This document shows positions 1 through 22,861 of a stretch of DNA of 64,000 nt, in pieces (within the stretch, counting starts at the first letter, position 1; each line of letters opens with the position of its first letter). Below the pieces are notes generated by a model that was not told the origin of the DNA, searched no databases, and saw only the letters and a list, made by a program, of their open reading frames with translations. The DNA lies in NCBI RefSeq assembly GCF_002899715.1, contig NZ_PPEK01000008.1, forward strand, positions 1-64,000. The letters are read 5' to 3'. The DNA is from Enteroscipio rubneri (lineage in GTDB: Bacteria; Actinomycetota; Coriobacteriia; Coriobacteriales; Eggerthellaceae). The position numbers and the translations under genes are program-made.

Positions 1-2
1 AG

Positions 3-65
3 TACGTGGCCGAGAGCGAGTGGGGCTCGAGGCGCTATCTGGACGTGACTCTGCTGGAGGGGTAG
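3..65 (+). CDS. C-terminal end of an unidentified protein (cut by left edge)
   Basis: An open frame runs from the left edge to a TAG at 63-65 and would encode the last 20 residues of a plus-strand protein ending in RYLDVTLLEG. It is opposite in direction to the conjugation operon that follows and would converge on the small membrane peptide gene at 148-246. The residue mix looks protein-like, but the piece is too short to name a family, and chance openness cannot be excluded. Confidence 0.3.
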   Translation, partial: YVAESEWGSRRYLDVTLLEG

Positions 66-147
66 CCGCACCGGACGGCGGGCTTATGAGGCTGTCGGAA
101 AAGTGCGCAAGATTCTTGACGGTACCGCTCAAAATTATCGTGCTCCG

Positions 148-246
148 CTACTCGTCCTCGTCCAAAGACCCCACCTTGAGGCAGCACCATGCGAGGATTG
201 CATTGCACATGAGGAACATCCCGAACACGAAAAGAAACGCCTTCAT
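148..246 (-). CDS. 32-residue hydrophobic membrane peptide downstream of sortase
   Basis: This short gene begins MKAFLFVFGMF and ends KVGSLDEDE. Its ATG (244-246) overlaps the TGA of the sortase gene as ATGA, the same stop/start coupling used elsewhere in this operon, and AGGAG lies a few bases upstream. Residues 2-23 form one hydrophobic segment rich in Phe, Leu and Met, with two adjacent Cys at its end, followed by an acidic tail, so it is probably a single-pass membrane peptide. It is the last gene seen in the conjugation operon. Its function is unknown; a partner of the sortase or of the surface protein would be a guess from position. Confidence 0.5.
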   Translation of the reverse strand: MKAFLFVFGMFLMCNAILAWCCLKVGSLDEDE

Positions 247-5100: not shown

Positions 5101-5110
5101 GCCGCACCTC

Positions 5111-5602
5111 CTATCGTGCTGGTTTCTCAAAAGGGGCTTTGCCCTCGGAGAGGGCGGAAGCGCCCTCGCGGGCATGCTCGGCGCGCGAGCTGAGCGATTG
5201 CTCCCTGGATTCGCGCTGCGCGAGGTACTCCCTGCGGGCCTCGTCGAGGGCAGTCTTGAGCTGCGCTGGCATGACCTTGACCGTGTCCTTCGCCGCACGC
5301 CCCGTCCGCTCGTCTATGACGGGATTGCCCTCGGCGTCGAGGATGGAGCGCTGCAGCCAGACCTCCCTGTTCGTCAGAAGCGGTATGTCGACGAAGTTCT
5401 CGCCTCGGTACTTCGAGGGGTTCACGAACATGGGCGAGAACTGGTAGTAGCTCACGTCGCGCCCTTCGATCACCGTCCCCTTCGGCAGCGTCACGGAGTT
5501 GAAGGTCCTCTTCTCGCCGCTCTTGGGGTCGGTGTACTCGATATCGGCCTTGACGAAGTTCCTGTGCAGGGTGATGTAGGTGTTCTTCTTCTCTTCGGCC
5601 AT
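5111..5602 (-). CDS. Unknown soluble protein of the conjugation operon
   Basis: A 163-residue protein starting MAEEKKNTYITLHRNF; AGGAG precedes the ATG at 5602. It has no signal peptide or membrane segment. The first 100 residues contain an ordered stretch (DIEYTDPKSGEKRTF, SYYQFSPMFVNP, NREVWLQRS), while the C-terminus is a charged, probably helical tail rich in Arg, Glu and Ser. It sits between the VirB6-like gene and the surface protein, with 10 nt to the latter. I do not recognise the family. Its position suggests an accessory role in DNA transfer or in surface protein production, but nothing in the sequence proves this. Confidence 0.75.
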   Translation of the reverse strand: MAEEKKNTYITLHRNFVKADIEYTDPKSGEKRTFNSVTLPKGTVIEGRDVSYYQFSPMFVNPSKYRGENFVDIPLLTNREVWLQRSILDAEGNPVIDERTGRAAKDTVKVMPAQLKTALDEARREYLAQRESREQSLSSRAEHAREGASALSEGKAPFEKPAR

Positions 5603-5729
5603 CGTCTCTTCTCCTTTCCTTGGTATCGGGATGGCGCCGGCCCTTCTCTTTGTTGACCGGGCCCGGGCCGGCGGCAAGGCCCGCAGGGTCTCATCCCGAG
5701 GGACGAGGTGTGCCTGCGCGCTTCCATGG

Positions 5730-6740
5730 TCAGAACCCGCTCACGATGTCGCGGGCCCACGTGCCGCTCTTCACGAGCGAGAGGATGAGCAGGACGCACA
5801 TGGCCAGGTACTGGAGCGCGTAGGTGAGGCCGTTCGCGATGCTGTCTATCGGCGTCCCCGTGCCGGGGTTGACGGCGACGAGCCCGCCCAGGATGAGGGG
5901 GAACGAGACGAGCAGGATGAGGATGATCAGCCCCGCGATGCAGACCGCGGCGAAGTTCTTGATGTAGCCGACGCCGATCTGGCGCGTGTCGTCGAGTGCC
6001 ATGAGGGACAGCGGTATCGGGCTGAAGGACGCCATGATGTAGAGCTGCAGGGCCCGCGCCCAGCAGACCACAAGACTCACGATGTAGGCCACCAGCACGA
6101 CGAGCCAGCTGACGAGCGAGACGAGGAGCATCGCGATGAGCGAGGGCAGGTCGTCGTCCCCCGTGACGATGGAGACCTCGCCTAGGTCGAGCGCGCCCCC
6201 CGTGCCGAACAGCGCGATCGTCCTGTCTATCGCCAGCCCCACCACCTCGTAGATCGCCTGCATGAGCTCGAAGCTGTTCTGGATCAGAAAGAGGAACACG
6301 GCGAAGAACACGAGCAGGAACACCACCTCCTTCACGCCCGGCAGCGACTGGCTGCCGTCCATGCGCTGGGAGATCTGGATGAGCTTGATGGTGAACACGA
6401 GCGAGAGCACCCCGCAGCCGATGGGCAGGATCGCGACCTGCCACACGGCGTGCACGATGTCGTACATGGAGGTCCCACCCGCCGTCGTGAGCATGCTGCC
6501 GAAGTCGGCTCCCAGGATCCCCTCGTAGCCGATCGACTCCAGGACGTTCGCCTGCTGGGAGAAAATCCAGTTGCAGCAGTCGCGCAGCACGCCGCAGAGC
6601 CACCCGTTGATGTCGTCGGCGATGCTCGCCCAGGCGGGCCGCGCCGGCAGGAAGATCGCCGCGCAGACGATGAAGGAGAGCAGGGACGCCCTCGCGAAGC
6701 GCTCCCTGCCGCCCTGCTTTGCCTCGATGCGCGCGATCAT
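5730..6740 (-). CDS. VirB6/TrbL-like polytopic conjugation channel protein
   Basis: A 336-residue membrane protein with a cleavable-looking N-terminal segment (SLLSFIVCAAIFLPARPAWA) and about six further hydrophobic helices. Among them are a long double helix near LIAMLLVSLVSWLVVLVAYIVS, the conserved-looking ALQLYIMASFSPIPLSLMALDDTR segment, and GLIILILLVSFPLILGG. This arrangement and the operon context match the VirB6/TrbL-like membrane component of Gram-positive type IV secretion systems, which would form the transfer pore. ATG at 6740 overlaps the upstream gene's TGA as ATGA, so translation is probably coupled. Assignment rests on topology and neighbours rather than a catalytic motif. Confidence 0.75.
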   Translation of the reverse strand: MIARIEAKQGGRERFARASLLSFIVCAAIFLPARPAWASIADDINGWLCGVLRDCCNWIFSQQANVLESIGYEGILGADFGSMLTTAGGTSMYDIVHAVWQVAILPIGCGVLSLVFTIKLIQISQRMDGSQSLPGVKEVVFLLVFFAVFLFLIQNSFELMQAIYEVVGLAIDRTIALFGTGGALDLGEVSIVTGDDDLPSLIAMLLVSLVSWLVVLVAYIVSLVVCWARALQLYIMASFSPIPLSLMALDDTRQIGVGYIKNFAAVCIAGLIILILLVSFPLILGGLVAVNPGTGTPIDSIANGLTYALQYLAMCVLLILSLVKSGTWARDIVSGF

Positions 6741-7486
6741 CGGAACGTCAGCTCCCCGGACCCGTCGTCGACCACGGTGACGGGGGTGTTCGCCGCGTCG
6801 TCGAGGGTGAAGTTCGTGAGCTTGGTGCCCGCGTTGAAGTCGAGCCAGACCTCGCCGTCCCAGGTCGCCTCGGTCGCATGGGGGGATGCCCCCTTCGCGA
6901 ACTCGCCGAGGACCGCCTCGAACTCGTCGCGGGTGTGCCCGAACGCGTCGAACAGCGCCTCGTCCGGGTTCCCGATCGACACGTGCGCTTCCTCGGCGAC
7001 ATCGCGCACGAAGGCGCCGCCCAGCTCGTCGCATACAATCCTCTGGGAACCGTCTGGGCCGCTGGTGACGAAGAGCACCGCGAGCTGCTGCGGGCCGTTT
7101 ACGGTTTGGGAGACGGAGAGCGTCGCGGAGAGGCTCCCGTCCGCGGAGGACTCCTCGTCGAGCGCGTAGTAGAGGACCGTCGTGCCCTCCGGGGACGTCA
7201 CGACGAGGTTCGTCGGGGTGATGGACAGCGAGGACCCGCCGTCCTCGCTCGTCCAGGACGATCCGGCTAGCGCGGAGAAGCCCTTGGGCGCGCCGCCGGC
7301 GGCTCCGGCATCCTCTTCCTCGTCGCCTCGCCCGGCCTCCTGCGGGCTCGCCTGCTCCTGCGAAACGGGATCGGGCCCCGCCTCGCCGCCGTCCTGCGCG
7401 AGCGTGCAGCGCGCTACGCTCGATCCGACGAGGATCGCCAGCGCCCCTGCCGCCAAGACGGCGATGATCTTCGTTTTCCTATCCAT
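6737..7486 (-). CDS. Secreted or membrane-anchored protein of the conjugation operon
   Basis: A 249-residue protein with a basic start (MDRKTK), one hydrophobic segment (IIAVLAAGALAILVGSSVA) and then an Ala/Gly/Glu-rich acidic linker to about residue 70. A compact, mostly beta extracellular domain follows (SSLSITPTNLVVTSPEGTTV, LAVLFVTSGPDG), then a helical DEALFDAFGHTRDEFEAVL region and a final beta part. A Cys follows the hydrophobic segment (VARC), but the lipobox is poor. AGGAGGAGG precedes the ATG. It lies between the cell-wall hydrolase and the VirB6-like protein. A VirB8-like assembly role would fit the position and topology, but no family match is visible to me. Confidence 0.75.
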   Translation of the reverse strand: MDRKTKIIAVLAAGALAILVGSSVARCTLAQDGGEAGPDPVSQEQASPQEAGRGDEEEDAGAAGGAPKGFSALAGSSWTSEDGGSSLSITPTNLVVTSPEGTTVLYYALDEESSADGSLSATLSVSQTVNGPQQLAVLFVTSGPDGSQRIVCDELGGAFVRDVAEEAHVSIGNPDEALFDAFGHTRDEFEAVLGEFAKGASPHATEATWDGEVWLDFNAGTKLTNFTLDDAANTPVTVVDDGSGELTFR

Positions 7487-7498
7487 TCTTTCCTCCTC

Positions 7499-9163
7499 CT
7501 ATCCGATGACCTTGATCGCCGCGGTGAAGTAGCCGACGCCCGACGCTTCCCTGCAGACCTCGCCCGAGTAGGGCTCGTGGATGTACTTGTCGTCCCCGAT
7601 GAAGATGGCGACGTGCCCCGGGCGCCACAGGATGTCCCCGGGCTCCGCGAGCGAGACGGGGACCTTGGTGCCGAACGCGGCCTGGTCCTCGGAGTTTCGC
7701 GGGATGGAGATCCCCGCCTGGGCGTAGCAGTACTGGGTGAGCCCCGAGCAGTCGAGCCCGACGCCGGGCGTGGTCCCGCCCCAGACGTAGGGCACGCCGA
7801 GCTGGCTGCGCGCCGCCGCGACCACGGTCGACCTCGCCTGGTCCAGGCTCCGGAACTCCTCCAGGCTCATGCCGTCGAAGCGGCGCAGGCCGTAGGCGTC
7901 CATGGCCGACTTGAGGCTCTCGACGTAGGACGAGCTCGTCGCCCATCCCGCGTCCTTGAGGCCTTCGGCCATCTTGTCCGAGTCGCGTTCCTCGATCGCC
8001 TCGCGGATGAGCGGGTTGTTCGCGTAGTGGCCCGCCTGCAGGAAGACGCGGCTCCTGAAGCGGATGCAGTCCACGTCCGAGGCGAACGAGGTGAAGTACG
8101 CCGTGATCGCCACCGCCTCGCCCCCGTACTCCTCGTTGGTAGCCCAGGCCGACTTGCCGGTCACCTCTGGGCAGGCGGCGAACGACGAGGACCATTTCAT
8201 CCCGAAGAGGTTGTGGTCGCGCTCCGCGAGCTGGCTCATGTGGTCACCCTGGCCCGATTCGCAGATGATCTGGGCTATCGTGCAGCCCGCCGGATGCCCG
8301 TAGTCCTCCTGGCACTCGATTGCCTCCTCCACCATCTCGTAGGTAATGTAGGGGGGAAGGCCCGCGAGGCTCTGCTTCGCCGCCTCGTTCTGCCAGAAGC
8401 CGAACAGCGCCGCGACGAGCTGGCTTACGGCGAGCGCGACGAGGATGAACGCGAGCACTCCCGCGAAAACGCCTCCCAAGGGGGCGGCTGCGCTCGCGAT
8501 GGCGCCGCCTATCGCCTTCGCCGATGTGCTCTTCGCCGCTGCCGCCGCCTTGGCGCCGCCTGCAGCCTCGGCCGCCTTCGCCTGGACGGCAGCCTGGGCG
8601 CGGACGGCCGAGGCGCTTGCGCCCTTGGCCGCGCCCTTCCCCTTGGCGGATCCCGCGGCGCGCGACGCCTTCTTGGAGGACGCGCCGGGGCGCTTGCCGG
8701 ATCCCGCCTGCCGGACGGGGCCGTTCGCCTTGCCCGCGGCACGGGCCCTGTTGGAGAGGCGCTTGGCCAAGACGGCCTTGTCGCGGACGCCGGCGGCTCC
8801 CGAGAACTCCTCGGTGTCGTCGAGCTCGTCCACCGCCGCGTTCCCAATCGCCGCCTTCGCTCCGATCGGGGAGCGATGCCCGCCGAGGCGCCCGGGTTGC
8901 GCGGCGGTCTGATCCGAAACGGCCGATCCTTCGGCGGCTCCGCAGGATCGCTCGCGTCCCCTCGATGCGCCCTTCGGGACGCGTCCCGCTTTTGCGGCGG
9001 CGAGCGGGCTTGCCTTCCGTGCCGCCGTGGACCTTTCCGCGAGCGTCGAGAGCGCCTGGTCGTCGGCGGATTTGACCGTCCCCGAGTTGAGGACCGTCTC
9101 CTTCTCGGCCGCCACGAGCTCGCGCATCCCAGCATCCTGGTATGTCTGGCCCTGGCCGCTCAT
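7499..9163 (-). CDS. Glucosaminidase + NlpC/P60 cell-wall hydrolase (VirB1-like)
   Basis: A 554-residue protein that should open peptidoglycan locally for the transfer channel. Residues 1 to about 215 are a low-complexity Ala/Lys/Arg/Gly region on the cytoplasmic side. One membrane helix follows (AFILVALAVSQLVAALFGF, about 233-255), then an extracellular glucosaminidase-like domain (ICESGQGDH, HNLFGMKW, AITAYFTSF). The C-terminus is an NlpC/P60 peptidase with Cys in LDCSGLTQYCY (about residue 470) and His in RPGHVAIF (about 516). The ATG overlaps the VirB4 stop as ATGA. Paired muramidase/NlpC hydrolases are standard in Gram-positive ICEs. The long basic N-terminal region is unusual and could bind DNA or the ATPase (inference). 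Confidence 0.87.
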   Translation of the reverse strand: MSGQGQTYQDAGMRELVAAEKETVLNSGTVKSADDQALSTLAERSTAARKASPLAAAKAGRVPKGASRGRERSCGAAEGSAVSDQTAAQPGRLGGHRSPIGAKAAIGNAAVDELDDTEEFSGAAGVRDKAVLAKRLSNRARAAGKANGPVRQAGSGKRPGASSKKASRAAGSAKGKGAAKGASASAVRAQAAVQAKAAEAAGGAKAAAAAKSTSAKAIGGAIASAAAPLGGVFAGVLAFILVALAVSQLVAALFGFWQNEAAKQSLAGLPPYITYEMVEEAIECQEDYGHPAGCTIAQIICESGQGDHMSQLAERDHNLFGMKWSSSFAACPEVTGKSAWATNEEYGGEAVAITAYFTSFASDVDCIRFRSRVFLQAGHYANNPLIREAIEERDSDKMAEGLKDAGWATSSSYVESLKSAMDAYGLRRFDGMSLEEFRSLDQARSTVVAAARSQLGVPYVWGGTTPGVGLDCSGLTQYCYAQAGISIPRNSEDQAAFGTKVPVSLAEPGDILWRPGHVAIFIGDDKYIHEPYSGEVCREASGVGYFTAAIKVIG

Positions 9164-11679
9164 CGCTCAGGGCTCTCCTCGCCATCCGCATCCCGAGATC
9201 CGGAGCTCGCCCGCCTGTTCGCCTCGAAGACGGCCTTGCGCTTGAGCTCGGCGATCTCGTCGGGCTTGGTGTTGAACAGGTCGTAGAGCGCGCCCTTCGG
9301 GAAGTCGTCCATGATCGGCACGCGCACGCCGCCCGCGACGAGCAGGCCCTCGCCGGCCTTGATGGAATCGTCTATGTAGCCCGCCTCGGTGTCGGAAAGG
9401 GTGAGCAGGTCCACCCAGCTCTTGCGGTCGAGCGCGGACTGCTTGTGCAGCAGGCAGAAATCCGAGTTCAGGACCATGTTGCGGGCGGACTCGTGCGTGA
9501 GCATGTAGGTCGAGTTCTGCGTGATTCCGGTGCAGATGAGGTTGAACTTGCGCCCCTCGGCCCAGAACTTGGAGAAGTACTCGATGATGGCGGGATGCCC
9601 GAAGAGGCTCTGCACCTCGTCGATGTAGAGCCAGGTGGTGACGCCCCGCTCGAAGTTCTCGTACATGCGGTTTCGCACCGCCTCGAGCGCGGTGAGCATG
9701 CCGAAGACGCGCATGTTGCTGGAGAGGTCGTGCAGATCGACGTTGGTGACGCGGTTCTTGAACGCCACGTTGCTCTGGCGGTTGAAGAACGAGAGCGCCC
9801 CCTTCACGAAGCGCTCGTAGCGAAGCGCGATGTCGCGCGCCTCCCGTTCGGGCTGCTCGACGAGCACACGGTAGAAGTCCTCGAGGGTCGGGATGCGGTC
9901 TCCCGCCTGGGCGTAGGCGGCCTCGACGCAGCGCGTGATGATGGACTTGTCCGCTTCGGGGAGCCCCTCTGCGCCCTCCGCCATCATGGCGGAGGAGAGG
10001 GCCAGGAACGCGTCGATCTTGAAGGCCATCTGGGCGGCGTCCGCCTTGCCTTCGACGTCCGTGAGGTCGAAGGGGTTCATGGACGTGTCCGAGTCGGGCG
10101 CGAGGCGGATGTTCTGGCCACTGCAGCTTCCGACGAGGGTTGAGTACTCGCCGGCGGGGTCGAAGATGACGACCTCGTCTTCGGGGAAGGCGAGCACCGT
10201 GTTCAGGATCTCGCGCTTGACGCTGAACGACTTGCCCGAGCCGGGCTTGCCGCAGACGAACCCCATGGGGCTCGCGAGCCGTTTGCGGTTGCAGATGACG
10301 AGGTTGCCCGACTGCTTGGACTGGCCGTAGTAGCCGCCGCCTTCCTGGTTGAGCTCCTGGGAGGCGAAGGGCATCTGCATCGCGATCTGGCCTGTGGTGA
10401 GGTGCCTGGAGACGTTCACGTGGTTGCGCCCCAAGGGGAGCATGGAGTTGAGCGCGTGCTTCTGGCGGTAGTCGAGCCCGACGATCCCGAGGGAGTTCCC
10501 CTGGGCCACGGAGACCACCTGCTCCACCTGGCGGTCGAGCTCCTCCAGGCTGTCGGCATAGGTGTAGACGAGCCCGGTGTAGACGAAGAGGCGCTCGTTC
10601 TTGTTGCGCAGGAAGTCGAGCAGCTCCTCCGCCTCCTCCTTCGAGTAGCGCAGCTCGGGCGGGAGGATCGAGTAGTCGTAGCCCTTCTTCACCGCCGCCA
10701 TCTGCTCGTCGATGATCTCCTTGTCCATCCAGTCGAGCTGGCGCTTCACCATCGCGAGCGCGTCGCTTTGCGCGATGGGCTGGATGTGCAGCGTCACGAC
10801 GAGCGGGATGGGCAGGTCGATGATGTTCGCGAGGTAGTAGTCCTCGAGCATGCTCCCGAAGTCGCGTATGGCCAGCACGCTGCCGAACACCCCGTCGGAC
10901 TCGAAGCAGTCCGCCCGTCCCTCGGGCGCGAAGTCCATGAGGTTCGGGGCGATGAGGTTCTTCGTGCGCAGGCCGCGGAACTGGGACAGTTTGTCCCAGC
11001 TGAACTCGAAGCGCTTCTTGGGGCGGACGATGGAGTCCATCGCGCGCAGGCGCTCCTCGCCGTCGACCGGGCGCGCGTCGCACCGGATGCGCGCGAGCGT
11101 CTGGCACACGTCGGCGCGGATGCGCGCGAGCTTCGGCGTCGCCGCGTCCACGTCGTCTGCGCCGACCATGTAGGTGAGGTAGCGGTGGCGCTCGAGGTTG
11201 GACACGCCCTCGCGCAGCTTGTCGTTGAGGATCCGGTTGTACTCGTCCACGAGCCCGTCGTCGACGTCGGCGACGTGGCGGAAGAAGCGCTTGGACCCGA
11301 TCACGTCGGCGGGGATGGGCGTGTTGGCGATCGAGAGCTGCACCGAGGTGTCCGCGTTGAAGTAGTTGTAGAGGCTCGAGAGGACGGAGAAGATGTTCTC
11401 CTGGGCGTCCCTTCGCGCCGATTGGTAGCTGATGTCGGAGAACTCGACCGTCTGGCTGAAGAGCCCTTCCTCCACCTGGGCGATGCCGTTTTTGTACATG
11501 GCGTCGTATCCGATGTAGTCGAGCTGGCGCTTCGCGGAGTTGCGGGCCTTGGACGTGCGCCTGGCCTTCTCCTCGCGGGCCTTCGCCTCGGCGCCCGTCG
11601 CCTTCCTGCCGCCGAGAAGGAGCCCCATGAGGCTCGACTTCCTGGCGGGCGCCTTTTTCCTAGAACTGTTCTGGGCCAT
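9160..11679 (-). CDS. virB4: VirB4-family conjugation ATPase
   Basis: An 839-residue cytoplasmic ATPase that powers assembly and transfer by the type IV secretion system. The N-terminal half carries the VirB4/TraC-type domain (YKNGIAQVEEGLFSQTVEF onward). Walker A is GKPGSGKS at about residues 476-483 and Walker B is LYIDEVQ at about 686, followed by FSKFWAEGRKFN and GITQNSTYML sensor-type motifs. The length is normal for the family. It begins inside the last 20 nt of the PrgI-like gene and ends in an ATGA overlap with the cell-wall hydrolase. One copy of the 17-bp palindrome TGGGACA-N3-TGTCCCA lies inside the gene at 10982-10998. Confidence 0.93.
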   Translation of the reverse strand: MAQNSSRKKAPARKSSLMGLLLGGRKATGAEAKAREEKARRTSKARNSAKRQLDYIGYDAMYKNGIAQVEEGLFSQTVEFSDISYQSARRDAQENIFSVLSSLYNYFNADTSVQLSIANTPIPADVIGSKRFFRHVADVDDGLVDEYNRILNDKLREGVSNLERHRYLTYMVGADDVDAATPKLARIRADVCQTLARIRCDARPVDGEERLRAMDSIVRPKKRFEFSWDKLSQFRGLRTKNLIAPNLMDFAPEGRADCFESDGVFGSVLAIRDFGSMLEDYYLANIIDLPIPLVVTLHIQPIAQSDALAMVKRQLDWMDKEIIDEQMAAVKKGYDYSILPPELRYSKEEAEELLDFLRNKNERLFVYTGLVYTYADSLEELDRQVEQVVSVAQGNSLGIVGLDYRQKHALNSMLPLGRNHVNVSRHLTTGQIAMQMPFASQELNQEGGGYYGQSKQSGNLVICNRKRLASPMGFVCGKPGSGKSFSVKREILNTVLAFPEDEVVIFDPAGEYSTLVGSCSGQNIRLAPDSDTSMNPFDLTDVEGKADAAQMAFKIDAFLALSSAMMAEGAEGLPEADKSIITRCVEAAYAQAGDRIPTLEDFYRVLVEQPEREARDIALRYERFVKGALSFFNRQSNVAFKNRVTNVDLHDLSSNMRVFGMLTALEAVRNRMYENFERGVTTWLYIDEVQSLFGHPAIIEYFSKFWAEGRKFNLICTGITQNSTYMLTHESARNMVLNSDFCLLHKQSALDRKSWVDLLTLSDTEAGYIDDSIKAGEGLLVAGGVRVPIMDDFPKGALYDLFNTKPDEIAELKRKAVFEANRRASSGSRDADGEESPER
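10982..10998. repeat. TGGGACA-N3-TGTCCCA palindrome inside virB4
   Basis: TGGGACA-GTT-TGTCCCA, with one further C/G pair outside, within the virB4 coding sequence. It has the same arms and spacer length as the sites at 14851 and 16848. Confidence 0.5.
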
Positions 11680-12076
11680 GGACCTCGGCCCCCTTCCTCT
11701 TGGCCCTGCGGCGCGCCTTGCGGGAGGGCTTTCCTGCGACGGGGCCCGTGCATGCGCAGCCGGCGAGCGCGTCGCCGGTGTCGTAGAGCATCGTCTGGCT
11801 GTTCATGGAGTGCTCCCAGAGAAGGGGGAGGAACTCCTCCAGCTTCATCCCGAAGGGGCGCCAGAACCCGGCGAGCCAGAACGGCAGCGCCGCTGCCATG
11901 ACGGGAAGCGTCGCGTTGCCGACCTCGATTCCGAGCCCGAAGTAGACGATCGCCGCCGCCGCGATGGCGGACGCGAAGCCGAGGGACACGCACGCGAGCG
12001 TGCGCAGGCTCATCTTGCCGACGATCTTCTCCTGGTACTCGCCGATGTCCTTCTGAATCGGTATCTGCAATGACAT
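11660..12076 (-). CDS. PrgI/VirB3-like inner membrane conjugation protein
   Basis: A 138-residue protein with two closely spaced membrane helices (ACVSLGFASAIAAAAIVYFGLG and ATLPVMAAALPFWLAGF) after a conserved-looking start MSLQIPIQKDIGEYQEKIVGKMSLRTL. That layout, and the place directly before virB4, are typical of PrgI family proteins, which correspond to VirB3. ATG at 12076 is used because AGGTGG lies just upstream; a GTG two codons earlier is possible. The C-terminus is basic (KPSRKARRRAKRK) with a short Cys motif (AGCAC), a feature I cannot explain from the family. Confidence 0.8.
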   Translation of the reverse strand: MSLQIPIQKDIGEYQEKIVGKMSLRTLACVSLGFASAIAAAAIVYFGLGIEVGNATLPVMAAALPFWLAGFWRPFGMKLEEFLPLLWEHSMNSQTMLYDTGDALAGCACTGPVAGKPSRKARRRAKRKGAEVHGPEQF

Positions 12077-12085
12077 GCCGACCAC

Positions 12086-12304
12086 CTACGCTGGGAGCCA
12101 GGATGTGTCGAGCATGCCGAAGTAGACGGCGGCCGCGATGATGATCGCGCCGCCCGCGATGGTCGAGATGGCGCTCGCGATCTGGGAGCCTCCCTGCTGC
12201 TCGCGGATGGCGAGGCCGAGCGAGACCGCGCCCCACACGACGAGGAACCCGCCGAGGAAGGTAACGCAGCCCGATACGAGCGTGATTATCTGGGTTAGCA
12301 TCAT
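12086..12304 (-). CDS. Maff2/VirB2-like small membrane protein (pilin-type)
   Basis: A 72-residue, two-helix membrane protein (MMLTQIITLVSGCVTFLGGF and STIAGGAIIIAAAVYFGML) with a short polar loop IREQQGGSQ between the helices. Size, topology and location just before prgI/virB4 match the Maff2 / TrbC-VirB2-like group of Gram-positive ICEs, which is thought to supply a pilin-like or channel subunit. AAGGAAACC precedes ATG 12304. The 143-nt gap upstream carries two strong palindromes, so this gene could be expressed or stabilised separately from virD4. Confidence 0.75.
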   Translation of the reverse strand: MMLTQIITLVSGCVTFLGGFLVVWGAVSLGLAIREQQGGSQIASAISTIAGGAIIIAAAVYFGMLDTSWLPA

Positions 12305-12447
12305 GGTTTCCTTTCTTCTTCTCGCCGCGATCGCGGCGATGTGCCCTGGTCGATCCCGAGAGGCGCATGCGGGCGGCGGCCCCATGCGCGGTCGCCCGCG
12401 CATGGGCCGGGTCTCCGGGCGCCGCCGCCCCTAGGCTCTTCTTTCCC
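12305..12447 (-). other. Intercistronic gap with two strong palindromes
   Basis: Between virD4 and the pilin-like gene. A perfect 16-bp palindrome (CGCCGCGATCGCGGCG) is at 12323-12338, and a 10-bp perfect stem (CCATGCGCGG / CCGCGCATGG, loop of 4) at 12382-12405. Neither is followed by a T-run, so a processing or mRNA-stability element is more likely than a terminator. A six-codon ORF with an excellent ribosome site (AAGGAGGAGG, ATG at 12449-12451, stop at 12431) also lies here; it is too short to call. Confidence 0.6.
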
Positions 12448-14283
12448 TCATGCCTCCTCCTTTTGACGTATCCGATAGGACGCGAAGCCGAACCGCTCGG
12501 CATGCCTTGCCCCTGGACGGCCGGGATCGATATGCCTGTAACGGGGATGCCGCTCGAGCGGGTACTTCTTGTCCTTGAACGGGAAGGCTCCCGTGATGAG
12601 CACGATCGCCTCGTCCCTGGGAAGCCTTCCGACCTCGGACGGTTGGATGAGGTCGCGCTCCTGCCTGTTGTAGTTGCGGGTCCGGCTCGAGCTGGAGCCG
12701 CGGGAGTCGTTGAAGGTGATCGTGGAGACGGTCTGCTTTCCGACCGCCTCCGAGATCTCCTTGTTGGTCTCGCCCGACTTCCCGCCGAGGAAGAGCGTCG
12801 TGTCGCAGCAGTCCTGGATGGTCTGCGCGTCGTCCTTGTAGCGGCTCTTGAGCTGGGCGAGGGACTGCAGGATGATCGAGCAGGATATGTTGCGGCTGCG
12901 CACGACCGCGATGGTCCGCTCGAAGTCCGGGACGTGGCCGATGTTGGCGAACTCGTCCAGGATGAAGTGGACGTGCGTGGGGAGATGGCCCGCATGCCGC
13001 CTCAGCGCGACGTTGCAGAGCACGTCGAGCGTCTGCCACATGAGGATCGCGAAGAGGAAGTCGAAGGTCGAGTTGGTGTCCGGCATGCTCGCGAAGACGA
13101 CCGTCCTCTTGCCCTCCTCGCCGAGCTCGTCGAGGCCCATCTCGTCGCGCTCGAGGAGCTTCGAGACCTCCTTGATGGACAGGGGCTTCAGGCGCACGTT
13201 GCAGCTGATGATGATCGACTTGAGCGTCTTGCCTGCGGCGGTCTTGAACGCCTTGTAGTTCGACAGCGAGAAGTCGTCCTCGGGCGGCACCGGCTCGCCG
13301 GTCCTCACCCACGTAAACCCTCCGGCACCACTCGAGAACGCCCTGCTCTCGAAGTCCTCCTCGGCTGCCTCGCCGGTCTTCACGAGCTTCTTTCCCGTCT
13401 CGAGCTCGGCGAAGAGGATGTCGAGCGGGCTCATGTACGATTCGTCCTCCTCCTTCGCCTCCGCGAGCCCGAGCAGGACGAGCAGCCCGGGGAGGTTGCG
13501 GTCCTCCTCGGGGCAGTGCGCGAGCAGGTAGGAGACGAGCGCGGTGTAGAGCAGGCGCTCCGCGTTCTCCCAGAACGGGTCTCCGGCATGGTCCTTGTCG
13601 CCCGTGGTGTTCTTGATGAGGCATTCGACGAAGGTGAGGACGTCGGCCTCGCTCCTCACGTAGCGAAGCGGGTTGTAGCGGTTCGATTCGGCGAAGTCGA
13701 TGGTGTTGAAGGAGCGGATCTCGTATCCCGCCTCCGCGAAGAGATGCCCTATCTCGCCGATGAGGGTCCCCTTGGGATCCGTCACGAAGTAGCTGGAGTT
13801 GAGCTGCATGAGGTTGGGCTTCACGTAGTAGCGCGTCTTGCCGGAGCCCGAGCCGCCCACGACCACGACGTTGTGGTTGCGGTCGGTCTTGAGGTCGAAC
13901 CTCCCGCGGTCGAGCGCGAGCCGCGCGTTCTTCGCGAGGATGATGTTGTTGTCGGGCGCTTTCGCGTCCCCGAACGCCCTCATCTCGGTCCTGGTCGCCC
14001 AGCGGGCGCTGCCGTGCTCCTCGCCGTTCCTGGTCCCCTTGGCCGTCAGGCGGTACGACCAGGCGATCCACACCGCGCAGACGAGCAGGACGCCGACGCA
14101 GATCCCCGCAGGCTCTCCGGTGAAACCGCCGCCTTTCGCGACGAAGCCCGGCAGCGTGACGGCGGCAGTCGCCAGGTTCGTGATCGGCTCTCCTGGGAGC
14201 GACGCCAGGTTCGACGCGTAGAGGTTCCCGGCCGCGAACGCGATCGGCGTCGCCATCAGGGCCGCGATGAGGGAAGGGCTCAT
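12448..14283 (-). CDS. virD4: VirD4/PcfC-type coupling ATPase (T4CP)
   Basis: A 611-residue membrane ATPase that brings the relaxase-DNA complex to the transfer channel. Two N-terminal membrane helices (SLIAALMATPIAFAAGNL and AGICVGVLLVCAVWIAWSY) are followed by the TraG/VirD4 domain. Walker A is VVGGSGSGKTRYYV (about residue 146); Walker B is HFILDEFANIGH (about 443), followed by VVRSRNISCSIILQSLAQLKS. The C-terminal PSEVGRLPRDEAIVLI motif is typical of the family. ATG at 14283 overlaps the PcfB-like gene's stop as ATGA, supporting this start and coupled synthesis of the two proteins. Confidence 0.93.
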   Translation of the reverse strand: MSPSLIAALMATPIAFAAGNLYASNLASLPGEPITNLATAAVTLPGFVAKGGGFTGEPAGICVGVLLVCAVWIAWSYRLTAKGTRNGEEHGSARWATRTEMRAFGDAKAPDNNIILAKNARLALDRGRFDLKTDRNHNVVVVGGSGSGKTRYYVKPNLMQLNSSYFVTDPKGTLIGEIGHLFAEAGYEIRSFNTIDFAESNRYNPLRYVRSEADVLTFVECLIKNTTGDKDHAGDPFWENAERLLYTALVSYLLAHCPEEDRNLPGLLVLLGLAEAKEEDESYMSPLDILFAELETGKKLVKTGEAAEEDFESRAFSSGAGGFTWVRTGEPVPPEDDFSLSNYKAFKTAAGKTLKSIIISCNVRLKPLSIKEVSKLLERDEMGLDELGEEGKRTVVFASMPDTNSTFDFLFAILMWQTLDVLCNVALRRHAGHLPTHVHFILDEFANIGHVPDFERTIAVVRSRNISCSIILQSLAQLKSRYKDDAQTIQDCCDTTLFLGGKSGETNKEISEAVGKQTVSTITFNDSRGSSSSRTRNYNRQERDLIQPSEVGRLPRDEAIVLITGAFPFKDKKYPLERHPRYRHIDPGRPGARHAERFGFASYRIRQKEEA

Positions 14284-14828
14284 TTGGACCTCACCGCCGC
14301 GATCTCGACCTCATGGGCCTTGCCGCGCGCCGCCTCCATCGCCTTCGCGCTCTCGCGGGCGGACGCCGCGCGCTCCTCGAGCGGCTGGGCGTCCCTTATC
14401 TGCTCGCGGGTCTTTCCGCGCGCCTCGAGCGCCCTGTCGAGGGCGATGTCCGCCTGCTTCTCCAGGTCGCCGAACGCGCGAGAGACGCTTGGGGCGTCCT
14501 CCACCTTGAAGAGAAGGTACTCCTTCCCTTTGTCCTCGAAGAAGGCGTGCTCGATGCCCTCGCCCGTAAGCTTCCCGTCGATGATCTCCTTGATGCTCCG
14601 GTATTCGGGGAGGGACGCGAACTGCTCCATGCTGAGTTTCGCCCACTCGGAAGGCTGCTCCACGGCATCCTCCGGGCCCTTTCCCCCTATCTCCCCGCGG
14701 GCGTTTCGCAATGCGTTCTTCAGCTTCTCGGCGCTCGCGAGCATCGCCTGCTCGCTTGCGTCCTGACCGATCCTCAGCACCCAGTCGAACAGCTTCTCGC
14801 CGCTTTCGTCCCCGAAATCAGTGGCCAT
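14280..14828 (-). CDS. PcfB-like (DUF3801-type) conjugation accessory protein
   Basis: A 182-residue soluble protein starting MATDFGDESGEKLF; GGAGGTAG precedes ATG 14828. The N-terminus is helical (DWVLRIGQDASEQAMLASAEKL). The middle carries a MEQFASLPEYRSIKEIIDG...EYLLFKVEDAPSVSRAF segment that resembles the fold of PcfB proteins, which bind the coupling protein PcfC and help recruit substrate. The last 60 residues are a charged helix. Placement immediately before virD4, with translational coupling, is exactly the pcfB-pcfC order. A palindrome related to two others in the element lies 23-39 bases upstream of the start. Family assignment is by pattern and context. Confidence 0.65.
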   Translation of the reverse strand: MATDFGDESGEKLFDWVLRIGQDASEQAMLASAEKLKNALRNARGEIGGKGPEDAVEQPSEWAKLSMEQFASLPEYRSIKEIIDGKLTGEGIEHAFFEDKGKEYLLFKVEDAPSVSRAFGDLEKQADIALDRALEARGKTREQIRDAQPLEERAASARESAKAMEAARGKAHEVEIAAVRSK

Positions 14829-14850
14829 CGGTTCTACCTCCGTTTCTCGC

Positions 14851-14867
14851 TGGGACGATCTGTCCCA
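14851..14867. promoter_or_regulatory. Operator-like palindrome upstream of pcfB-like gene
   Basis: TGGGACG-ATC-TGTCCCA, a 17-bp near-palindrome in the gap before the pcfB-like gene. Two closely matching palindromes with the same 3-nt spacer occur in the element at 10982-10998 and 16848-16864. This is the only intergenic copy, so it is the best candidate for a regulator binding site. Confidence 0.45.
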
Positions 14868-14876
14868 CTTCGCAAA

Positions 14877-14932
14877 ACGACAAAGCACGCTCCAGCGGCA
14901 TCGAATGCCTTGCTAGGAACGTGCTTTGCCGT
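14877..14932 (-). terminator. Compound hairpin at end of unknown gene (attenuator-like)
   Basis: A 13-bp outer stem with one mismatch (14877-14889 with 14920-14932; CGTGCTTTG core) encloses an inner perfect hairpin GGCAT-CGA-ATGCC (14897-14909). Read on the minus strand it is followed by TTTT. It overlaps the last codons of the gene ending at 14913 and lies before the pcfB-like gene, so it could partly separate replication genes from transfer genes. Confidence 0.5.
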
Positions 14933-15761
14933 TTCTTCCCGTTGCGTTTGAAGGGGGGTTGATCGCCGACGACGATTCGCAGGCTTCCGACGAAGCGTCT
15001 CTGAGGCTCCTGAGCCTGCTTCTCGCCGCCTCCGACCTCGATCTTCCATCGCTTTCCCGCGACCCCTCAATCAGGGAGGACAATGCATCGCGGGCTCTGC
15101 CCGAAGCGGAGACGATGCTGTCGCATGCCCCGTCATGGAACACGAGGGCGCGGGAGGCGCGGTCGGATATCTCGAGCATCGCGCCGTCGAAGCTCGGGCG
15201 CTCGTACGCCTTCACCGCGTAGTCGCCGCAACGGCTCTCGAGGATCTTGCATTCAACCTGATCGCCCGCCCGGTTCTCGGAGCAGGCGGTCATGAGGCTC
15301 CAGGGCTCGTCGAGCATGGGAAGCCTGTATTCGAGCCTCTCGCATTCGCTCGCGGAAGCCGCGCTCATGCCCACGATGAGATCGTTGAAGCCGTGCCGGT
15401 CCCGGCTCAGGCCGCCGAACGAGCAGTTCTCGAACGCCAGCCAATCGCCGGGCTCGCCCTCGTCGCCGATCTTCTTGAGGGTCCACCACTCGTCGCCGCC
15501 GTCGACCTGCTGGACGAAGGCCAGATCGCGGTAGACCACGCCCTGCCGTATCGCCCAGTTTCCGCGCCGGAAAAAAGAGCGAAGCTCCTCCATCGAGGAT
15601 GCTTCGCGGATGTCGTAAGGATAGTCTTCGAGGTAGGGGTCGTCTTGCCAGGCGTATCCGCCGGCTCTCAGCCAGCCGTTCTCCTGGCATTTCGCCGCCA
15701 AGGATTCCTGGACGGATGCGTCGGCCCGGTCGGCCCCGATATGCGTCGCAGCGTGCGCCAA
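14913..15761 (-). CDS. Unknown protein of the conjugative element
   Basis: An open frame of 282 residues with no signal peptide or membrane helix. The first 230 residues are rich in Trp, Asp, Glu and Tyr and contain fold-like segments (NGWLRAGGYAWQDDPYLEDY, GDEWWTLKKIGDEGEPGDWLAFENC, RPSFDGAMLEISDRASRAL). The last 60 are Ser/Arg/Ala-rich and look disordered. The start is uncertain: a TTG at 15759-15761 follows GCGAGG, and no better ATG is near. It lies between the DnaC-like loader and the pcfB-like gene. I recognise no family; defence, entry-exclusion or replication accessory roles are all possible. Confidence 0.6.
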   Translation of the reverse strand: MAHAATHIGADRADASVQESLAAKCQENGWLRAGGYAWQDDPYLEDYPYDIREASSMEELRSFFRRGNWAIRQGVVYRDLAFVQQVDGGDEWWTLKKIGDEGEPGDWLAFENCSFGGLSRDRHGFNDLIVGMSAASASECERLEYRLPMLDEPWSLMTACSENRAGDQVECKILESRCGDYAVKAYERPSFDGAMLEISDRASRALVFHDGACDSIVSASGRARDALSSLIEGSRESDGRSRSEAARSRLRSLRDASSEACESSSAINPPSNATGRNGKARS

Positions 15762-15881
15762 CGACCTCGCCCCCTTTCGCTGCCCCCCGGATCGGCGCCG
15801 TCGGCGTCGGCGGGAGGACGGTTCGCGCCCATTGAACCATCGGGCGGGAGCGGTCGAGGTCGGTGGGCGGCGCGCTCGGTT

Positions 15882-16715
15882 CTATTCGGTTCCGCTGGTC
15901 GCTCGGCCTCCCGGATACCCTCCGGGAAGGCTCCTGAAGTCGACGTCGGGACGCTCGATGCGCGTGCAGGTCTCCTTCAGGCGGGACAGGATGGCGGTCG
16001 CCGGATCGCCGAACCCCTGCCGGCTCATTCGCCTCCCGAGGTTCGGGGGGTCGTATTCGCTCGTGACGATCGTCGAGCGCATCTCCCCATACCTCGCGTT
16101 CAGGATCTGGAACAGGGTGCGGACAGCCCAGTCCCCCGCGCTCTCCTTGCCCATGTCGTCGATGACGAGGAGGTCGCATTCGACGTACCTCCTCACGACG
16201 TCGAGGGTTGGGCTCGAGTCGTCGAACGTCCGCTGGATCTCCCCGAGCATGTCTATCGCCGTGGTAACGAGCACGCGCTTCTTCGCGTCGAAGAGCCTGC
16301 GCGCCAGCGCGCAGGCAAGGGACGTCTTCCCCGATCCGCACGTGCCTTGGATGTAGAGCCCGCTGCCGGGACGGGAGTCGAAGTCGGCGAGGAACATGGC
16401 GGCCTCGTTGCTGTCGATGACCGCATTCTGGTAGCGCGGAGGTATGCCGACCGCGCGGAGCTTTTCCGTGTAGCGCCGGTCTTTCTCGGCAGCCCTCCTG
16501 GCCTCCTCCTCTTCCTTCGCCGCCCTCTCCTGGTCGCAACCGCACCCTCCGCTGATCCAGACGACCTTTCCGGCGATCAGAAGGGCGAAAGGGGCCTTCC
16601 GCCTCCCGCAATGCAGGCATCGGACCTCGGGAGGGGGAGGGTACTCCATCCCCATTTCGGCAAGCTGCGCTTCGGTGAAGCGGCTTGGCTCAGAAGCTGT
16701 ATCTGTCGAAGCCAT
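15882..16715 (-). CDS. DnaC/IstB-like helicase loader ATPase
   Basis: A 277-residue AAA+ protein of the DnaC/DnaI group, which loads replicative helicase at an origin. The N-terminus has a possible zinc site with four Cys (CLHCGRRK and GCGCDQ). The ATPase core has Walker A GTCGSGKT (about residues 126-133), Walker B CDLLVIDDMGKE, and a sensor-type IVTSEYDPP segment with a basic SRLKETCTRI end. It overlaps the preceding winged-helix gene by 26 nt. Initiator plus loader implies that the element can replicate as a circle after excision (inference). IstB-type transposition helpers share this fold, but no transposase is adjacent. Confidence 0.85.
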   Translation of the reverse strand: MASTDTASEPSRFTEAQLAEMGMEYPPPPEVRCLHCGRRKAPFALLIAGKVVWISGGCGCDQERAAKEEEEARRAAEKDRRYTEKLRAVGIPPRYQNAVIDSNEAAMFLADFDSRPGSGLYIQGTCGSGKTSLACALARRLFDAKKRVLVTTAIDMLGEIQRTFDDSSPTLDVVRRYVECDLLVIDDMGKESAGDWAVRTLFQILNARYGEMRSTIVTSEYDPPNLGRRMSRQGFGDPATAILSRLKETCTRIERPDVDFRSLPGGYPGGRATSGTE

Positions 16716-17166
16716 CCTCGGCTTTCCTCTCCCTGGGGTTTTTCATCTCTATACTCTCTGGCGGAACTCGATTCGGAGGGCGTCGTCGTGGCCGTTCGGG
16801 CAGGGGGCGCTGCCCTTCGGAACTTTGTTCGGCGAAGTCCGTTCCGGTGGGACAGATTGTCCCACCAGCGCCCTTGAGCGGGTTCACGGCGCGGAAGACC
16901 TTGGTCGAGCGCCCGTTTCGCAGGCGATGCGAGCCGACCTCGACGACCAGCCCCTTCTCCCTGAGGATTCTGAGGGCCTTGCCGATCGCCCTCTCGCTCA
17001 CGCCGAGGCTCTCGGCCATGGACCTCTGGGATTCGTAGCAGCCCGCGCCCCCTCCGACCGTGAAGCCGTATATCCTTGCGTACAGCAGCAGGGGGACCCC
17101 TTGCAGCTTCAACTGCTTTATCATGAACCTCCGGATCACGATGAAGCCTTCCTCGCCGCCCGCCAT
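16690..17166 (-). CDS. Winged-helix replication-initiator-type protein
   Basis: A 158-residue protein whose first 110 residues form a winged-helix domain (LYARIYGFTVGGGAGCYESQ, RSMAESLGVSERAIGKALRILREKGLVVEV). It resembles the N-terminal domain of RepA/DnaD-like initiators; the rest is a charged, Pro/Arg-rich tail. ATG at 17166 is chosen because it leaves a 14-nt gap to the upstream gene, whereas the alternative start at 17226 would overlap it by 46 nt. The next gene encodes a DnaC-like loader, a pairing common in ICE and plasmid replication modules. A perfect 9-bp-arm palindrome containing TGGGACA-N3-TGTCCCA (16848-16864) lies inside it. A transcription factor role is the alternative. Confidence 0.65.
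   Translation of the reverse strand: MAGGEEGFIVIRRFMIKQLKLQGVPLLLYARIYGFTVGGGAGCYESQRSMAESLGVSERAIGKALRILREKGLVVEVGSHRLRNGRSTKVFRAVNPLKGAGGTICPTGTDFAEQSSEGQRPLPERPRRRPPNRVPPESIEMKNPRERKAEDGFDRYSF
16848..16864. repeat. TGGGACA-N3-TGTCCCA palindrome inside initiator gene
   Basis: The core TGGGACA-GAT-TGTCCCA extends by two more pairs on each side (GG..CC). It is the most perfect of three copies in the element. Its position inside the replication gene would suit an origin-binding or regulator site, but its function is not shown. Confidence 0.5.
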
Positions 17167-17180
17167 GGCCAGCCTCGCCC

Positions 17181-17471
17181 TTATCTCTCGGGGCTTCCGA
17201 GCAGAGGAGCGTTGCGCTCCACCCACTCGTTCAGCTCCCGCCTCGTGACGAGGTAGCCCCTCGTCCTGAACCTGAGCTGGCGGGCGGGCAGCGGGTCCTC
17301 AGGCAGCTTGATCAGCTTGTACGCCAGATGCTTGTTGATGTGGAGCATCTCGGCGACCTCTTCTATCGTGTAGATGTCCTTCTCGGTGCAGATGAGCTTG
17401 ATCTCCGCGACCTGCCTTCTCCCGGCGCCTTCCTCTTTGGCCTTTATCTTCTTCACTCCAGCGTCCGACAT
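17181..17471 (-). CDS. Excisionase-like helix-turn-helix protein
   Basis: A 96-residue protein starting MSDAGVKKIKAKEE with AAGGAG upstream of ATG 17471. After a basic, probably disordered first 35 residues comes a MerR/excisionase-type helix-turn-helix (DIYTIEEVAEMLHINKHLAYKLIK) and a wing with RFRTRGYLVTRRELNEWVE. Such proteins bind attachment-site DNA to steer excision, or regulate the operon. A second protein of the same general type lies upstream at 17606-17923, so one may be a true excisionase and the other a regulator. Confidence 0.75.
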   Translation of the reverse strand: MSDAGVKKIKAKEEGAGRRQVAEIKLICTEKDIYTIEEVAEMLHINKHLAYKLIKLPEDPLPARQLRFRTRGYLVTRRELNEWVERNAPLLGSPER

Positions 17472-17605
17472 GCACGCACTCCTTTCCGACACGCTTCTGC
17501 TGAAGCGAACGCGACCGTATGGGCATATGCACATTCAACGGCGGAAGGCGGCTGAACGGACGAGGGGCAGCAGTCGCGGATCCTGTAAAACGCTAAGACG
17601 TTCGC

Positions 17606-17923
17606 TTAAGCAAGCAAGCCGTCCTTGATGCACCGGTCGAGCGTCTCCCTGCAGATCAGGATTCGCCCCCTTACGCGGTGGGACGGTAGCTTGCCCTCCC
17701 TGACGAGCCTGTACATGGTCGTGCGCGAGACGTGCACGTAGTCGCACGCCGCCTGTACAGAGAGCCACTCCTCGCCCGCGGGCCCTTTGGAACCCGCATC
17801 GCGGCGCGGCTCGGCATCGGCGGGGGACGGCTCCTCGGCGGCCCGGAGTCGCGCCATGACGCCGAGCATCTCGGCAAGCAGGTCCTGCCGATCGTTGGTG
17901 CTGCCGGTCTTTCTTGTCTCCAT
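17606..17923 (-). CDS. Excisionase-family DNA-binding protein next to the attachment region
   Basis: A 105-residue protein with a polar N-terminal half and a C-terminal HTH_17-type domain: WLSVQAACDYVHVSRTTMYRLVREGKLPSHRVRGRILI. The REGKLP...R pattern is characteristic of Xis/MerR-like binding domains. It is the element gene nearest the tRNA and the TTAGCCCAAA repeats, which suits a directionality factor for excision. No integrase gene is adjacent. The ribosome site is weak (GAGCAGGC). Confidence 0.8.
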   Translation of the reverse strand: METRKTGSTNDRQDLLAEMLGVMARLRAAEEPSPADAEPRRDAGSKGPAGEEWLSVQAACDYVHVSRTTMYRLVREGKLPSHRVRGRILICRETLDRCIKDGLLA

Positions 17924-18156
17924 GCCTGCTCATTTCTCTGTCTTCGTGCTTTCCGAAAAGAGACATCTCCTAATCGATGCCTGGCTAGATTATTGGGAAT
18001 GGGCAGGTGAGCGGCAAACGAGAGGGGCGTTTTTCAGTTCTATTCGGTTCTATTCGCCCCATCGGAGGGGCACGGGAGAATTTCTCCGCGAAAGAAGGAG
18101 GACGTGAAACTTTGTGTTCGCAATGTGGAATCGCTGGATCGCCGATCGGCCCATTT

Positions 18157-18337
18157 TTGGGCTAATGGCCCTGGCGTTTCATGGGGTTTCCCCAGGTTGC
18201 AGATTGTTTCATTGTATTTTAGCCCAAAATTAGCCCATAACCTCATCTCGAAGGGCGCTTCGACGGCGGAAAAAAGTGCCGACGTAGAGGTTCGGGCAAG
18301 GGCCAAAGGAGGGCATTTTAGCCCAAATTAGCCCAAA
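18157..18337 (+). repeat. TTAGCCCAAA direct repeats resembling integrase arm sites
   Basis: TTAGCCCAAA occurs at 18219-18228 and, in immediate tandem, at 18318-18327 and 18328-18337. A TTAGCCCAT variant is at 18230-18238 and an inverted copy (TTGGGCTAA) at 18157-18165. Short, closely spaced direct repeats between an excisionase-type gene and a tRNA are typical of tyrosine-recombinase arm-binding sites. Confidence 0.6.
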
Positions 18338-18351
18338 AACAGCCTGATTTG

Positions 18352-18387
18352 GGAAATAAAAAAGGCCAGAGGATTTAGCCTCTGACC
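18352..18387 (-). terminator. Rho-independent terminator of tRNA-fMet
   Basis: On the minus strand GGTCAGAGG pairs with CCTCTGGCC (one G-T pair) around the loop CTAAAT, and TTTTTT follows directly. It lies 10 nt beyond the CCA end of the tRNA. Confidence 0.8.
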
Positions 18388-18397
18388 TGGTGTTTTA

Positions 18398-18474
<77 letters not shown>

Positions 18475-18787
18475 ATTTCTAGAAACTAAGTTGTCAATGT
18501 TGCTGGGTTATGAGCCCGGCGAGCTACCAGACTGCTCCACCCCGCACTATTTGCGCCTGCCCCTCCTGCTCGGTTAACTGCAAACAGGAAAAGCGGCGAG
18601 ATTGAATGTTACTCTTGCACCGCACCTTACGCAAATCATTTCTTGATCTATCACAAAACGCACACGTTCTTGCCCGCTCGAAAGGCTTACGTTCTATCCA
18701 ATGGCAAGACTAAATTGGACCGGTCTTAAACATGCAATTCAATCAAGGGCCCCAAAAGCTCGAAAGGCACGCTCATCTGCTGCTTGC
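18475..18787. other. Chromosomal junction with tRNA fragment, otherwise empty
   Basis: Apart from the partial tRNA copy at 18505-18546, no gene is seen between the tRNA and the end of the CoA-transferase gene. The sequence is mixed and AT-richer than average near 18600-18720. The tRNA promoter should lie to the right of the fragment, but I cannot point to clear -35/-10 boxes. Confidence 0.5.
18505..18546 (-). pseudogene. Truncated copy of the tRNA-fMet 5' half
   Basis: These 42 nt match the tRNA-fMet gene from its first base through the 3' arm of the anticodon stem with one mismatch (41/42). They are in the same orientation, 72 nt from the intact copy. The match stops exactly at the base of the anticodon stem, and no variable arm, T arm or CCA follows. 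It may be an old attachment-site half or a decayed tandem tRNA. Confidence 0.85.
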
Positions 18788-22484: not shown

Positions 22485-22861
22485 TAAAGCGTGTCTCCTT
22501 TATAGATAGGCTGCCGATCGCCGCGGCCGCCTCTCGAGTGCAGCGCCGCGACGAAATTCAATGTCCTCACACTTTGTACCATCAGCAACGCCGCACACGA
22601 GGAAAAACTATCCTATATACAGAAGTTTACGACGTTTTGCAACAAATAGGAGCGGCTCCGGCAACGTTTTGCGCACACGGCTCCGACCGTGTTACACAAC
22701 AGCGCATTCAGCCAGTCACAATGCACTTGTGGACGCTTTACAACATGGGGGTGTGTTATATTGTGATCATTCAACGAAAATGAGAAGCTTCGCCGTGCAG
22801 CCGTACGGTACCTCCTGTCGGCAGATACGTCGAAACCCTTTATGGGAAAAGGGAGTGTCGA
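22485..22861. other. Promoter region of the large surface protein; no gene
   Basis: A relatively AT-rich intergenic stretch between divergent genes. A possible plus-strand promoter is TTTACA (22737-22742) with TATTGT (22759-22764) 16 nt downstream, leaving a leader of about 100 nt. No gene or strong hairpin was recognised. Confidence 0.35.

Follow-up and report, generated by a model that had tools for sequence, protein, structure and literature searches.

The conjugative element and its palindromes

The window analysed here is a 64,000-nucleotide stretch of the Enteroscipio rubneri genome (Eggerthellaceae; RefSeq assembly GCF_002899715.1, contig NZ_PPEK01000008.1, hereafter C8), the first part of which belongs to an integrative and conjugative element (ICE). 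A 17-bp palindrome, TGGGACA-N3-TGTCCCA, lies at three places in this ICE portion, and the three copies are considered here as candidate sites for a ParB-type protein encoded by the same element. The sites, the genes around them and the ICE portion are as follows.

10982–10998: candidate ParB-type site 1, TGGGACAGTTTGTCCCA, within virB4; the gene strand encodes W-D-K-L-S
14851–14867: candidate ParB-type site 2, TGGGACGATCTGTCCCA, one base off, immediately 5' of the Shine-Dalgarno sequence of the pcfB-like gene
16848–16864: candidate ParB-type site 3, TGGGACAGATTGTCCCA, in the 3' part of the HTH_36 initiator-like gene; peptide GGTICPT
9160–11679, minus strand: virB4-like conjugation ATPase gene, which hosts site 1 (named from an earlier reading of the sequence and from its position in a PrgI-VirB4-NlpC/P60 cassette)
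14280–14828, minus strand: pcfB-like gene (DUF3801, weak), directly after site 2 and at the head of a pcfB-virD4-prgI-virB4 cassette
16690–17226, minus strand: HTH_36 initiator-like gene (PF13730, E 4.2e-07), which hosts site 3
1–18548: ICE portion in the window, continuing past base 1 onto contig C21

The earlier, sequence-only reading had reported three copies at 10982, 14851 and 16848 with an exact 3-nt spacer and one varying arm base, situated in virB4, in the gap before the pcfB-like gene and in the initiator gene, and had seen none in the chromosomal part. An exact scan bears out each of these points, with zero palindromes in the approximately 45 kb of chromosome at 18.5-64 kb. When up to one mismatch is allowed, the window contains three matches, compared with a mean of 0.00 and a largest count of 0 in 100 dinucleotide shuffles. 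The deviating base belongs to site 2, which has a TGGGACG arm; since the near-identical element of genome G017 has a perfect A at this base (TGGGACAATCTGTCCCA), site 2 looks like a one-base decay. Scanning site 2 for sigma-70 and terminator signals gave no match, and no consensus terminator was found in the window.

Both C8:127-18548 (98.8%) and C21:128-8041 (97.2%) align to adjoining stretches of a single 56-kb contig of G017, and the parAB genes of the window's element are therefore placed on C21, approximately 5.7 kb beyond window base 1 (parB at C21:5877-6785, parA at C21:6772-7539). G017 carries the element on a single contig, and there a distance of 17-23 kb separates parB from the three sites; for the window's element, site 1 and the parAB operon are about 17 kb apart. 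Because the homology with G017 stops at 18548, the stretch 18398-18548 looks like the right end, or attachment site, of the ICE. A complete tRNA-Met occupies 18398-18474, with a partial tRNA copy after it at approximately 18506-18546.

Distribution of the palindrome and of parB

There are eight places with TGGGACRN3TGTCCCA in the host genome (2.83 Mb, 43 contigs), three in the window and five on contig C12 (55113, 57524, 58519, 60777 and 65224, all within approximately 10 kb), and the reversed control occurs at none. The sequence-only reading had staked its claim on the motif not being equally frequent across the chromosome, and all eight sites do lie in two ICEs. The C12 region is the second of these, a related ICE (VirB4 69% identical) with the gene order HTH_17, initiator, DnaC-like, 174-aa protein, pcfB, virD4, prgI and virB4. 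This region also contains a tetracycline-resistance ribosomal protection gene (G000:C12:89364-91283, or L174:15364-17283; NF033148, 1283 bits).

A count of the exact 14 fixed bases across 138 genomes of the family gives 51 occurrences, in 22 genomes, versus 3 for the reversed control, and most of the fetched family sites fall in ICEs of the same type IV secretion system (T4SS) family; VirB4 homologues are present in 47 of the 138. Two positions recur. The first starts 34-47 bp ahead of the start codon of pcfB in most motif-bearing ICEs, and the second lies early in virB4, over the W-D-K/N-L-S codons, at the same place in ICEs whose protein is 54-99% identical; the two are approximately 3.9 kb apart in most ICEs. 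In the C12 element and its sister in G024 the pcfB-side site stands one gene earlier, ahead of the gene for the 174-aa protein. Site 3 is kept in G017, and more distant ICEs have no site at that place. Replication iterons in the initiator gene were rejected as a general explanation because the site there occurs elsewhere only in G017.

The spacer is R-N-Y (purine-N-pyrimidine) in 36 of 39 distinct sites and the base ahead of the half-site is C in 60 of 78; thus, the full consensus is CTGGGACA-RNY-TGTCCCAG. No report of this palindrome in ICEs was found in open-access papers, and the Bifidobacterium sequence GGGACAG-N15-TGTCCC has a differing spacing (PMC5217627).

A complete parAB operon is encoded by the same elements. 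ParA is a Soj-like protein of 255 aa that begins at its Walker motif (AISNYKGGVGKTT / KGGVGKTT), and its gene lies directly upstream of parB, with overlapping ends, wherever neighbouring sequence was examined in Eggerthellaceae ICEs. PF02195 (ParB_N) scores at or above cutoff in three ICE ParB homologues, and an SGHRRKAA core carries the GxRR motif; by Foldseek, the fold resembles those of Noc and ParB-CDP (E 7e-9 to 1e-6) and also those of Spo0J and KorB. Both protein hallmarks of ParABS membership, a ParB with ParB_N and GxRR and a Walker-type ParA encoded with it, are therefore present. At L157:1068-2852 (G047:C15) parA and parB form one open frame of 594 aa, possibly a natural ParA-ParB fusion.

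ParB proteins approximately 50-97% identical to that of C12 are found in every one of a set of genomes with motif-bearing ICEs (C12 itself, G024, G062, G053, G017, G066, G076, G083, G089, G102, G116, G047 and G057); the homologue mostly shares a contig with the motif-bearing ICE. Among 38 genomes with VirB4 of at least 60%, a site is present in 21 of the 22 with ParB versus 3 of the 16 without it (Fisher p=1.3e-6), where a site is either a GGGACA-type or a variant TGYGACA-type palindrome with an RNY spacer and where the table, assembled by hand, tallies genomes and not elements and is uncorrected for kinship. G025 has lost ParB and the pcfB site too. In a sister clade (G007, G068, G095, G096, G076b, G102b and G066b) ParB is 61-63% identical, the core GGGACA-N3-TGTCCC is kept and the outer bases differ. 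G009 has variant sites, and a ParB was not found there.

These distributions bear on whether the palindrome could be a mobile sequence, similar to repetitive extragenic palindromes (REP) or miniature inverted-repeat transposable elements (MITE), or could merely reflect chance coding conservation in virB4. Outside ICEs there are indeed lone copies whose flanking inverted repeats are extended (L153-L156), and W-D is conserved as protein in virB4, which fixes TGGGA(C/T). However, the flanks are not conserved, the arms are conserved with variable central bases, enrichment is found only in elements with parB, and the positions recur across diverged ICEs, so that this explanation is highly improbable. 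A mobile palindrome had been one option of the sequence-only reading and is unsupported, since two positions recur in ICEs with VirB4 only 54-80% identical and the motif tracks parB. Codon 232 of virB4 (Ser) is TCC in 7 of 7 motif-bearing lineages, and only 2 of 16 invariant Ser columns hold one codon, although this comparison is biased and weak, its rows having been selected for carrying the motif. At L160 (G056:C43), four copies or near copies lie within 8.5 kb beside DUF6508 genes, and a copy in the C12 ICE also adjoins a DUF6508 gene.

ParB recognition residues and the Clostridial elements

The variant TGYGACA-N3-TGTCRCA is found at 16 family sites versus 5 in the control, chiefly in one ICE clade (G005, G009, G058:C3, G080 and G137). 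Eleven ParB columns separate the two motif classes, and three of these (177, 181 and 188) lie in the helix-turn-helix. Residue 181 is K in 23 of 23 GGGACA-type proteins and R in 4 of 4 TGYGACA-type proteins, and residue 177 is K/R in the former (n=23) and A/Q in the latter. In an AlphaFold model (mean pLDDT, the predicted local distance difference test score, 78) the recognition helix spans 180-196, with 181 in its first turn and 177 in the turn that precedes it; this part of the helix-turn-helix determines the specificity of ParB and Noc (PMC7383237). By its sequence TGKAVSGRSI, the ParB of G029 would predict TGYGACA sites in the full element. The occurrence of 3 of the 11 discriminating columns within a 12-residue helix-turn-helix segment has p=0.007, for a segment picked after viewing the data. 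It is suggestive, then, that motif type tracks the helix-turn-helix residues of ParB.

ICEs of gut Clostridia, labelled Tn1549-like by eye from gene content, contain a longer form, RCTTYGGGACA-N3-TGTCCCRAAGY; each examined element has approximately 7-9 exact copies, and further ones appear when one mismatch is allowed. Nearly all gene borders have a copy, which in some cases overlaps a start codon (L179, L180, L176, L177, L182, L183, L188 and L192). The ParB-like protein of these ICEs is more distant, and its gene has copies on either side (G138 C4 74754/75745; G139 C9 139860/140860), and no ParA motif was found near these genes in the fetched sequence. A tentative proposal is that a large group of ICEs of gut Actinomycetota and Clostridia (Tn1549-like) shares one ParB-site code, GGGACA-N3-TGTCCC, with many ParB clamps, scattered over the transfer genes, serving as a conjugation silencer. 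If true, the Clostridial ParB would act in regulation or in coating DNA and not in segregation, as the copies at gene borders, the flanked parB-like gene and the lack of a detected ParA may indicate.

The palindromes might alternatively function as RNA hairpins in the transfer mRNA, in processing, stability or antitermination, instead of as DNA sites. Every site is able to form a 7-8 bp hairpin, and the pcfB site lies in a probable 5' leader with, in several ICEs, a terminator-like hairpin before it (recognised by eye). Yet the prevailing R-N-Y spacer is not needed by a loop, motif type tracks ParB residues, and the flanking pair in Clostridial copies is the unpaired C..A in 15 versus T..G in 17 of 64, gene orientation being uncorrected. 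There is thus little probability that hairpins account for the sites.

Operators for another DNA-binding protein of the element, such as the HTH_36 initiator, the HTH_17 excisionase-like protein or PcfB, would coordinate the T4SS and replication genes. Site 2 stands directly ahead of the pcfB Shine-Dalgarno sequence, site 3 is within the initiator gene, and small helix-turn-helix proteins are encoded nearby in many of these ICEs. Nevertheless, the initiator gene of distant ICEs is without site 3, no invariant initiator or HTH_17 column separates the two motif types, and in Clostridial ICEs that share the core, copies flank the gene of a ParB-like protein. Such operators are therefore unlikely, and the helix-turn-helix proteins of the window (initiator, HTH_17) are weaker candidates as binders.

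Proposed role and comparison with known systems

The palindromes are probably scattered parS-type sites for the ICE's own ParB, forming an ICE ParABS system, a reading to which we assign a probability of about 0.78. It is judged likeliest because of the co-occurrence of ParB and palindrome, the altered helix-turn-helix residues in the ParBs that accompany the variant motif, the ParB-type fold, the precedents for scattered sites in RK2 and N15, and the likeness of the half-site to those of F and N15. ParB-type proteins load at palindromes, close with CTP (cytidine triphosphate) and slide. As we infer it, a ParB dimer would read the two half-sites, (C)TGGGACAR, through its helix-turn-helix and, by analogy with ParB and KorB, close as a CTP-dependent clamp and slide into flanking DNA. 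Its sites would, unusually, be dispersed among the DNA-transfer genes, with no single cluster beside parAB, and would favour the places before pcfB, the first gene of the transfer cassette, and inside virB4. One outcome would be that ParA drives the segregation of the element when it is excised or replicating; a second, compatible with the first, would be that ParB, bound or sliding, damps the transcription of transfer genes in the manner of KorB on RK2. This added role in transfer control is plausible because a site is placed at the head of the transfer cassette. An operator for an element-encoded regulator and a partition or replication site, offered as separate options by the sequence-only reading, are supported jointly, the likely binder ParB being a partition protein of a kind able to repress, with its binding here predicted.

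Several observations weigh against this assignment. In G017, parAB has no site adjacent to it, and in G137 ParB and motif are on separate contigs. G114 and G109 carry a ParB of the expected type with no site found, and ICE G058C2 has no recognisable site, its parB being altered in the helix. Outside ICEs there are a few lone sites (L147, L151-L156, L160 and L167), some with extended flanking inverted repeats, and the spacing of the 17-bp ICE site differs from that of sopC and N15 (16). The co-occurrence of ParB and palindrome reflects in part common inheritance of the ICE. Invariant-versus-invariant columns of the same kind are present in VirB4 (2) and DnaC (1), so that the weight of the covariation rests on the helix-turn-helix position of the ParB columns, and co-occurrence alone carries less weight as proof. 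A single clade of the four variant rows is rejected (p 2e-10), although p=0.08 with two sister rows of unknown motif included; two independent origins of the variant are thus not secure. G058C2 (L230 10974-11031) contains two TTAGCT-N3-AGCTAA palindromes, 37 bp apart, and the GGGACA site is absent.

Among known systems, KorB-OB of RK2/IncP is alike in having a ParB-fold CTPase clamp and dispersed palindromic operators, including in transfer regions, through which transfer genes are repressed, and the KorB clamp silences transfer and replication genes from up to 1.5 kb (PMC11790492). The ICE site before pcfB fits a repressor of this type, with repression here predicted, whereas the OB sequence is unrelated to the ICE palindrome. 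Chromosomal ParABS (Spo0J/ParB) and Noc provide the best sequence and fold matches of the ICE ParB and share the small Soj-like ParA, but the ICE site differs from parS TGTTTCACGTGAAACA and from the Noc-binding site (NBS) ATTTCCCGGGAAAT. The host ParB was rejected as binder because the host possesses canonical parS of its own. The host chromosome has an unusually large number of these, 48 perfect copies of TGTTTCACGTGAAACA (57 with up to two mismatches, control 0); the nearest to the window is at C8:64108-64123, and none lies in window 1-64000 among the matches listed.

RK2 and N15 are known to have scattered centromere sites (PMC5016525), and the N15 SopB sites are TGCGACC-N2-GGTCGCA (PMC7205306). 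The four inverted repeats of N15 (IR1-IR4 at 33480, 35931, 41125 and 45562) lie 9-22 kb away from sopAB (22121-24315), one of them within a replication gene, and the half-site TGCGAC is near the ICE variant TGYGAC. In contrast, N15 sites are 16 bp with a 2-bp centre versus 17 bp in ICEs, SopB is not detectably close in sequence, and N15 is a linear plasmid prophage whereas the element here is an ICE.

The sopC site of the F plasmid, TGGGACC-AT-GGTCCCA, shares the half-site TGGGAC(C) with the ICEs, but it forms a tandem array beside sopAB whereas the ICE sites are scattered. F SopA is large with an N-terminal helix-turn-helix, unlike the 255-aa ICE ParA. The ICEs consequently fall outside the SopABC group (type Ia), having neither the 16-bp TGSGACC-N2-GGTCSCA site (TG[G/Y]GACA with a 3-bp centre in ICEs) nor a large ParA with an N-terminal helix-turn-helix. 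The proposed pairing would supply a concrete pair of protein and site in ICEs of gut bacteria, some of these ICEs with tetracycline resistance, and would tie element segregation to transfer control. The half-sites of F and N15 differ at the third base, which is also where the two ICE motif classes diverge. The use of the same half-site by unrelated-looking ParBs (F, N15 and ICEs), together with the K181R/TGYGACA association, may offer a natural system for the evolution of ParB specificity, as ParB and Noc have been studied likewise (PMC7383237).

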